From positions 186,001 through 250,000 of the forward strand of contig JAXDDX010000012.1 in assembly GCA_034670405.1 (NCBI GenBank): DNA of 64,000 nt. The letters are read 5' to 3'. The DNA comes from Hoplostethus atlanticus (lineage: Eukaryota > Chordata > Actinopteri > Trachichthyiformes > Trachichthyidae). Position 1 is the first letter of the stretch, and each line of letters starts with the position of its first letter. A program made the position numbers and the translations under genes. Positions 53,901 to 56,900 of this stretch are shown piece after piece. The notes below the pieces were generated by a model that did not search any database, was not told where the DNA came from, and was given only the letters and a program-made list of their open reading frames with translations.

Positions 53901-56900
53901 CATGCTGTATAATGTTTCCTAGTTCCTAGTCCTCTTCACCTATTGAGAACAAATTCTCACAAACGGATTAAAACGAACTGAAGCATTGTTATCATGTGTT
54001 ACTGTGATGTATTCTGCTTTGGAAACCTGCTGTTGTTCCACGGTCCAGACCCGTTCCAGGGGCACAAGGCTGAACATAATCATAGTCGCTGAGGGAGCCA
54101 TTGACAGGCATGGGAAGCCTATAACCTCTAGTTTTGTCAAGGATGTGAGTACCTGCACGTGCAGGAAGGAGAAGCCAGAAGCACGGAGAGCCGACTGTTT
54201 GAAATCAGTCCACTGAGCCGCAGCAGCGCATAGATGTGTTACAACCATCCATGATTTATGAGAGAAAGTAAGAGGCACTTCCTGCTTCAGATCAGGTGGT
54301 CATGCCATTCTGATCTACCTGTGATGATAAGTGAGGTGGTCAGGATATTGCTGATTACACTGCAAACATGAGCTGTCAATGACATTCATAACATTCATAA
54401 CTGAGTCTCGGCTCCGAGGCTGTTATCGCCGTCCGGCCCCTCCGTGCTTCTGAAAGCCCATGTCAACGCCGTTGTCTCAATTTTTCTGTCATGTCGTTTC
54501 TCCACCACCCCTCCCTGTAGAACCGAGCAGGGATGAAAAGGCTGAATATCATAATTGTAGCCGAGGGGGCGATTGATCATAACAACAAGCCCATTACCAC
54601 TGACTATGTTAAGAATGTAAGTACAGTGTGGCGGGTTCCACTGTAAAAGTCCAGCACCGACTGCCTCCTGTATGACCTCTACTACTGTACTGCTGCCCTG
54701 GTGAGGCTTTGACTCTGTCGCTGTGCCTTCTGGAATGCTCTCTCAGACACTCTGTAGTTTGGTAAGGCAGCTTTCACCTGTTCTACTAAAGCTGTAAGAC
54801 CCTGACTAGATGTCTCCTCTGGTTTGATACAATGCCAAATTTAACCTGACACCCTACATTAACTTGACACATAGACATTTGTAAAATCAAATGTCATTTA
54901 TTTGTAACTTTAGAATTGATAAAACACAGTAAATATTTGTTGTTAAAATATTTATTACTTTACAGATATCTACCGTGACCCTACACTACTTTATCGTGAT
55001 CCTACACTACTTTATCGTGACCCTACACTACTTTATCGTGATCCTACACTACTTTATCGTGACCCTACACTACTTTATCGTGACCCTACACTACTTTATC
55101 GTGATCCTACACTACTTTATCGTGACCCTACACTACTTTATTGTGATCCTACACTACTTTATCGTGACCCTACACTACTTTATCGTTACCCTACACTACT
55201 TTATCGTGACCCTACACTACTTTATCGTGATCCTACACTACTTTATCGTGATCCTACACTACTTTATCGTGATCCTACACTACTTTATCGTGACCCTACA
55301 CTACTTTATTGTGATCCTACACTACTTTATCGTGACCCTACACTACTTTATCGTTACCCTACACTACTTTATCGTGATTCTACACTACTTTATTGTGATC
55401 CTACACTACTTTATTGTGATCCTACACTACTTTATCGTGATTCTACACTACTTTATCGTTACCCTACACTACTTTATTGTGATCCTACACTACTTTATCG
55501 TGATTCTACACTACTTTATCGTTACCCTACACTACTTTATTGTGATCCTACACTACTTTATCGTGATTCTACACTACTTTATCGTGATACTACACTACTT
55601 TATCGTGACCCTACACTACTTTATCGTGCCCCTACACTACTTTATCGTGACCCTACACTACTTTATCGTTACCCTACACTACTTTATCATGACCCTACTC
55701 TACTTTATCGTGACCCTACACTACTTTATCATGACCCTACTCTACTTTATCGTGACCCTACACTACTTTATCGTGACCCTACACTACTTTATCATGACCC
55801 TACTCTACTTTATCGTGACCTAACACTACTTTATCGTGACCCTACTCTACTTTATCGTGACCCTACACTACTTTATCATGACCCTACTCTACTTTATCGT
55901 GACCCTACACTACTTTATCGTGACCCTACACTACTTTATCGTTACCCTGCACTACTTTATCGTGACCCTACTCTACTTTATCGTGACCCTACTCTACTTT
56001 ATCGTGACCCTACACTACTTTATCGTGACCCTACTCTACTTTATCGTGACCTTGCACTACCCCTTCTTAACTTTAATGCAAACATGTGAGCCGTTTTGTT
56101 TGTCTCTATTTGGTTTAACATTTACCTGCTTGGGATCTAATGTGCTGCTCTGCTCAGTACACGCTAAAAGCAACCCCACTAACATGACCGAAAAATAAGA
56201 ATGGTTTGCATGTGCTTTGCTGTTTCCCTTTCTCTTCATCTTCTCTCCTGTGTTTGTAATTTCATGTACAGTAGTATTTCCATTACCGTGTTTAACCAAA
56301 CCATATTGGTCCTTATAGCTTAATGTTTGCTAAGACCTGAACTTTTCATCCTCCCAGCTTGTTGTCAGATGCTTGGGTTTCGACACACGTGTGACAATCC
56401 TGGGTCACGTCCAGCGAGGAGGGACCCCGTCTGCTTTCGACCGCATCCTGGTTGGTACACCGCCTCAATAGCAAACAGAGGACTTAACTGTAGTCACAAA
56501 TACACACAAATCACACTCACAGAAATCAAAACAGCCATACACATCACCAAGAAATGGTCAGATCTGGTTTTACCCATCAGGTTACATGCTCTACCTTTTA
56601 CATCATGCACTCCCTATTAACTATAACTATCAACTATTTGAGTTCATTTGGTAGCAATGGTCCGTTAGTCCAGAGCACTCCCTGTGTAATCCTGTATATG
56701 CCGTGTACTCTGTTGGGCTGAGGACAAATGGACATTGGTTTTAGGTTAAGCACATTAACAGATTTATTACGCAGCACGCGCCATGAAGCGCTCCATCACC
56801 GACACCAAAGGGAAAATCTCCAGTTTTACCGCTGTCCACTAAAACTGAAGAAGAGAGACCGACTGATGAATAGAAATGTATGGCCCAATGAGAACATGGA

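Follow-up and report, generated by a model that had tools for sequence, protein, structure and literature searches.

Can a single phosphofructokinase gene give its enzyme either of two regulatory surfaces through a choice between two exons? Phosphofructokinase-1 (PFK-1) is the textbook allosteric enzyme, and the differences among its isozymes are usually ascribed to three genes. In the pfkp gene of the fish Hoplostethus atlanticus we found two neighbouring homologous versions of exon 8, here called 8a and 8b. They lie in a stretch of 64,000 nucleotides that we refer to as the window (C12:186001-250000 of a 633-Mb assembly); unless another sequence is named, coordinates are those of the window, and the exons lie on its plus strand. 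From the comparison of sequences and gene models, we think it probable that pfkp has in 8a and 8b an old, functional pair of homologous exons used as alternatives, as a rule one at a time, and that their exchange would alter the wall of an effector site in the N-terminal half of the enzyme.

A tandem pair of homologous exons

In the exon chain, exon 7 (53729..53837) is followed by exon 8a (54049..54144), an intron of 376 nt (54145..54520), exon 8b (54521..54616) and exon 9 (56358..56450). The two versions are thus adjacent, of the same length (96 nt) and of the same phase (0-0), as tandem homologous exons should be, and both have AG/GT borders. An earlier description of this locus, made from the sequence alone and hereafter called the original prediction, had given the positions, lengths, phases, borders and spacing of the pair exactly, and had rightly placed the flanking junctions at the end of exon 7 (53837) and the start of exon 9 (56358).

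A recount from the translations confirmed the 20 identities in 32 residues that had been claimed for 8a and 8b; their nucleotide identity is 64%. Chance similarity can be ruled out, since among 127,810 six-frame windows of 32 codons the best match to 8b other than itself is 8a (20/32), while the next best reaches only 10/32. Thirteen of the 20 common residues are encoded by different synonymous codons, which argues for an old duplication held by selection on the protein.

The two exons differ in the isozyme that they resemble. The best human match of 8a is PFKL (45.8 bits, 27/32 residues, against 28.8 bits for PFKP), and 27/32 residues agree with rabbit PFKM; 8b scores highest with human PFKP (33.3 bits, 23/32, against 30.7 bits for PFKL). 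A FastTree of the 32-residue peptides splits 8b and human PFKP from 8a, PFKL and PFKM on its longest inner branch (support 0.988), the peptides being too short for the tree to order the 8a/8b split relative to that of PFKP, PFKL and PFKM. The gene as a whole is of the PFKP kind: exons 7-8b-9 find PFKP as their best match in the PDB, and close models are labelled platelet type. The closest listed protein models come from Myripristis murdjan, with 97% identity over residues 1-200. The Pfam domain PF00365 was found on two relatives (P0141, P0042), on which the search was run in place of the window protein.

Conservation, paralogs and age

Is the pair peculiar to this gene? When the 8a peptide was compared with the assembly, seven places stood among the best candidates: 8a and 8b of the window, a further pair on C75, and single copies on C30, C27 and C38. 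Over 118 residues from two neighbouring exons, the highest score of C75 is with PFKP (203.6 bits), that of C30 with PFKL (210.1 bits), and those of C27 and C38 with PFKM (212.8 and 211.9 bits). The C75 locus is a second pfkp gene (pfkpb), in which 1,034 nt separate 8a from 8b; each of the two exons has an open frame and AG/GT borders. Its intron 7 (L016:6952-7059 to L010:7078) spans about 20 kb, compared with 211 bp in the window gene. The other three, one pfkl and two pfkm genes, each have a single exon 8, which is of the RGSR type, and no second exon 8 was found in their exon 7-9 intervals (about 701, 323 and 366 nt for C30, C27 and C38).

Between the two pfkp genes, the ratio of non-synonymous to synonymous substitution rates (dN/dS, Nei-Gojobori) is 0.10 for 8a, 0.05 for 8b, 0.05 for exon 9 and 0.09 for exon 10, values that come from few sites and a high dS, close to saturation for 8b. 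On account of this low ratio, the open frame and the AG/GT borders in both genes, 8a looks like a working coding exon under purifying selection.

In relatives, too, both exons appear intact and selected. The 240 models that we fetched, less one that was dropped (P0003, see below), hold 48 distinct 8a peptides and 68 that are 8b or 8b-like; in the numbering of the bacterial enzyme, the classes were sorted by position 213, so that this residue is S/T throughout the 48 and K throughout the 68. The equivalent of Glu222 is kept in all 48 and all 68. Exon position 22 is G in 48/48 8a peptides and N in 67/68 8b peptides, and position 211 is Arg in 48/48 of the former and, in the latter, Gly in 54, Asp in 8, Arg in 4 (one of them a mixed model), Glu in 1 and Gln in 1. 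The mixed model is an 8b-like peptide that begins with 8a-type letters. With position 213 omitted, the first copy in every double model still classifies as 8a; the second classifies as 8b in 114 models and ties between the classes in 8 (bowfin and sturgeon types), and the order is never the reverse.

How old is the pair? When protein models were searched with exons 7-9 in their 8a form, 120 were listed, of which 107 have both exons in tandem, 12 have 8a alone and one (P0003) is an artefact. They cover both teleost paralogs, distinguished by the motifs TRSRG[TS]R / NRAGMKR and SRSRGSR / NRADKKR, as well as salmonids, catfishes, cyprinids, eels, bonefish and the bowfin Amia. A second search, with 8a between human flanks, again listed 120, namely 119 double models and P0003, and newly added sturgeons, Huso, Arapaima, Paramormyrops and the sharks Cetorhinus and Rhincodon, each with 8a before 8b. 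P0003 (Acipenser sinensis) was the top match of both searches; we dropped it because it is of pfkl type and repeats an internal stretch, probably through a model or assembly error. As the order 8a-8b occurs in shark and bony fish models alike, the duplication most likely predates the split between cartilaginous and bony fishes, and the presence of the pair in shark and sturgeon models indicates that it is not a teleost novelty. No tetrapod was among the 120 models listed for the query with human flanks. We treat a loss of 8a in tetrapods as a lead only: a near-human PFKP with 8a would be expected in such a list, a distant one perhaps not.

If 8a may thus have been lost at least once, could it be a decaying relic here, or an artefact of gene models or assembly? 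Its acceptor tract is indeed weaker than that of 8b (1.5 against 4.6, scored with frequency tables). Against this stand the conservation of 8a peptides from sharks to percomorphs, the open frames with low dN/dS in two paralogs, and a contig of spliced appearance that contains 8a only (P0181, below), so that we regard a relic or artefact as highly improbable. The stops or frameshifts in relatives on which the original prediction would have foundered did not appear in pfkpb 8a, and the 8a peptides of other species are conserved, as protein models, which by construction cannot show stops.

One exon or the other

The original prediction held that one and only one of the two exons is used. For a sample that is independent of exon 8, we searched with residues 1-200, and among the 120 models listed, all of them predictions, 63 have 8b alone, 42 have 8a alone, 12 have both and 3 have neither. 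Exactly one exon is therefore found in 105/120. Two short contigs of tuna type point the same way: the 3,234-nt contig of P0181 contains 8a only, and its protein differs from the Thunnus albacares model P0182 at just 12 residues, every one of them within exon 8, while the 2,809-nt contig of P0185 contains 8b only, and its protein is identical to Thunnus X4 (P0184) once the two N-terminal residues are removed. Both contigs are far shorter than the pfkp gene of Hoplostethus atlanticus, and from their size and protein sequence we take them as spliced transcripts, the alternative being processed copies. Hence one-or-other use is supported, and P0181 speaks against an 8a that goes unused; strict exclusivity may be too strong a claim, as 12/120 models join both exons in frame.

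These double models suggest another possibility, namely that 8a is a cassette exon without mutual exclusion and that a tandem form of about 820 residues is real, for instance as a dominant-negative or scaffold subunit. Both exons are joined in frame not only in the 12/120 models above but also in 107/120 and 119/120 of the 8a-directed searches, among them NCBI isoforms such as Parambassis X1-X4, and the shark and sturgeon models are of the double type. However, the 8a-directed searches favour double models, since a model with two matching stretches gains score from each; in the independent sample there are 105 single models, and of the 12 doubles four are NCBI isoforms that belong to one species, the other eight coming from other pipelines. 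Both contigs of complementary DNA size (P0181, P0185) are single as well, and a second copy of this strand within the domain that binds fructose 6-phosphate (F6P) should disturb the fold. AlphaFold offers a weak hint in the same direction, in that the predicted local distance difference test (pLDDT) score of the exon-8 stretch is lower in the double model (blocks 27-55 vs 59-73), both models being poor (mean pLDDT 56.7 for the double and 59.1 for the single form, from 46 similar sequences). Taken together, we consider a genuine tandem subunit quite unlikely. Many public pfkp models join 8a and 8b, and some join 16a and 16b of a second pair (below) or skip both; unless RNA supports them, these may be widespread annotation slips. 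Exon 8 in particular is likely mishandled by annotation in the many public models that splice both copies together.

What could enforce the choice? The introns between the copies are 376 nt long in the window and 1,034 nt in pfkpb. An intron of 376 nt suffices for splicing of 8a to 8b and sets no steric bar to double inclusion, and exons of 96 nt keep the frame when doubled or skipped. Neither steric hindrance nor nonsense-mediated decay would thus enforce exclusivity. An explanation by a short intron, a distant branch point or incompatible splice-site types is unsupported, given the 376 nt, the GT-AG borders of both exons and AG-free stretches of 63 and 62 nt. Counts of motifs for PTB, MBNL, RBFOX, NOVA and other factors (one genome, several motifs, uncorrected) gave nothing persuasive. 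The RNA fold over 54020-54640 reached only z = -1.96, with 1/20 shuffles as good, and is not counted as evidence. Together with the double models from many species, NCBI isoforms included, these points weigh against our reading of 8a and 8b as exons normally used singly, as do the poor quality of the structural models and, for the functional part considered next, the fact that residues 211, 213 and 222 owe their assigned roles to the bacterial enzyme, from which these roles were transferred to the fish by alignment.

The effector site and known exon pairs

Which part of the enzyme would the exon choice change? We aligned the fish protein with the enzyme of G. stearothermophilus, in a sequence identical to PDB 3u39. 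Fish residues 256-258 align with Arg211, Gly212 and Lys213, and residue 267 with Glu222. The match of RGTR in 8a and GMKR in 8b with bacterial residues 211-214, first proposed for the E. coli enzyme, holds on this reference used in its place. The original prediction had placed differences at all four of these residues; three differ between the exons, and the last R is common to both. Both exons also carry the expected substrate glutamate, aligned with Glu222. In the bacterial enzyme, we take Arg211 and Lys213 to be part of the effector site for adenosine diphosphate (ADP) and phosphoenolpyruvate (PEP), and Glu222 to bind F6P.

In human PFKL, site 3 sits where the bacterial effector site is, according to a 2025 review (PMC12203962). 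The same review links adenosine triphosphate (ATP) in site 3 of the PFKL T state to the displacement of two arginines in the F6P pocket, and reports phosphate in site 3 of PFKP R-state structures (PMC12203962). We propose that the exon choice swaps a segment in which the F6P-binding glutamate is kept and the wall of site 3 is altered. Inclusion of 8a would produce a PFK-P subunit with a wall of the PFKL/PFKM type (Arg211, Ser/Thr213), inclusion of 8b one with the PFKP-type wall (Lys213), and the expected outcome would be a change in how the enzyme responds to ATP as inhibitor or to phosphate as activator.

Several of the class differences fall outside 211-213, at exon positions 22 and 28, after AID, and they would suit a pair that is real and exclusive but whose swap has no allosteric meaning, affecting instead stability or tetramer and filament contacts, or being kinetically neutral. 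Yet the cleanest class difference falls on the effector residue Lys213, and the same change (S/T vs K) sets human PFKP apart from PFKL and PFKM; a swap devoid of allosteric meaning therefore seems unlikely to us. If one gene does splice either wall, fish and shark cells could retune the gate of glycolysis without switching the expressed gene, and nature would provide a matched enzyme pair, differing in 12 residues, for testing the role of site 3.

Exon 8 is not the only tandem pair of this gene. The pfkp gene, of pfkpa type, runs in the window from the ATG of exon 1 to exon 16a (47872..62824). The exon chain up to 62824 comprises 17 exons with AG/GT borders, 8a and 8b among them; tblastn was used besides it. 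Exon 16a (62672..62824) is the first member of the second pair; exon 16b follows 233 bp beyond the window end (L002:233-385 = C12:250233-250385), and it and the later exons lie within the next 4.2 kb (L002). A 21-bp minisatellite of about 52 copies (54974-56060) takes up the greater part of the intron that follows 8b, and its long open repeat frame was not taken for a gene. An Rfam search of the window gave no match.

Exons 16a and 16b are 153 nt each, share 35/51 residues and differ as PATVSNN and PATISNN; residue 539 was located on them through the human PFKP sequence. In human PFKP, two papers describe mutually exclusive exons that cover residue 539 (PMC9741552, Martinez-Gomez et al. 2022; PMC7954323, Lam et al. 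2021), with a change of valine to isoleucine proposed to alter allosteric sugar binding (PMC7954323). By sequence, the fish pair matches this human pair as its counterpart. In pfkpb, exon 16b (L011:8215-8368) is interrupted by a stop close to its 3' end, which means either that this copy is decaying or that the assembly is in error; models of pfkpb type from Salvelinus (P0230) and Channa (P0240) read through the exon.

With a switch at exon 8 and another at the sugar effector site of the C-terminal half, one gene could yield four PFK-P subunits. All four combinations occur among the 120 models of the independent sample: 8b/16b in 44, 8a/16b in 33, 8b/16a in 9 and 8a/16a in 5, where five exon-16 classifications are pattern misses that are 16b by eye; the remaining 29/120 have double, missing or unread exons 8 or 16. 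We tentatively propose that jawed vertebrates inherited a PFK-P with two independent switches, exon 8 for the ATP/phosphate site of the N-terminal half and exon 16 for the fructose-bisphosphate site of the C-terminal half, giving four subunits per gene able to combine within tetramers, and that tetrapods kept only the second. If this were true, mammalian PFK-1 studies would have missed half of the system.

As far as our searches go, both exon-8 forms are already public in NCBI and UniProt-listed models and yet undescribed: we found no description in the open literature, supplements and most subscription papers being outside its scope, which agrees with the original prediction, whose author knew of none in fish. 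The exon-8 pair is not mentioned in the main text of PMC5740500 and PMC3228551, nor in the main-text parts of PMC9741552 and PMC7954323 that were accessible, supplements being outside this scope. For Atlantic salmon, the accessible part of one study mentions pfkpa expression and mutually exclusive exon (MXE) events separately, with no link seen between them (PMC12613645). What gives the pair its interest is that it is old and sits in a classic allosteric enzyme.

How does the pair compare with known systems? Its closest relative is the human PFKP pair at residue 539, which consists of tandem homologous exons of the same gene; that pair lies in exon 16, in the C-terminal half (residues 511 on), whereas the exon-8 pair lies in the N-terminal half, beside the active site and the bacterial-type effector site. 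With the PFKL and PFKM isozymes 8a shares its sequence type, but here the L/M-type segment would be supplied by splicing inside a P-type gene and not by a separate gene. PKM1/PKM2 is a mutually exclusive exon pair in a glycolytic enzyme, with a measured change of allosteric control according to PMC7954323; the enzyme and the site are different, and the effect measured there is inferred for exon 8. Finally, OGDH exons 4a/4b form a mutually exclusive pair that alters the Ca2+ response of a metabolic enzyme, as described in PMC7969005, and resemble the exon-8 pair in its proposed action on an effector response; in contrast to that system, the acceptors of pfkp 8a and 8b have ordinary AG-free stretches of 62-63 nt.
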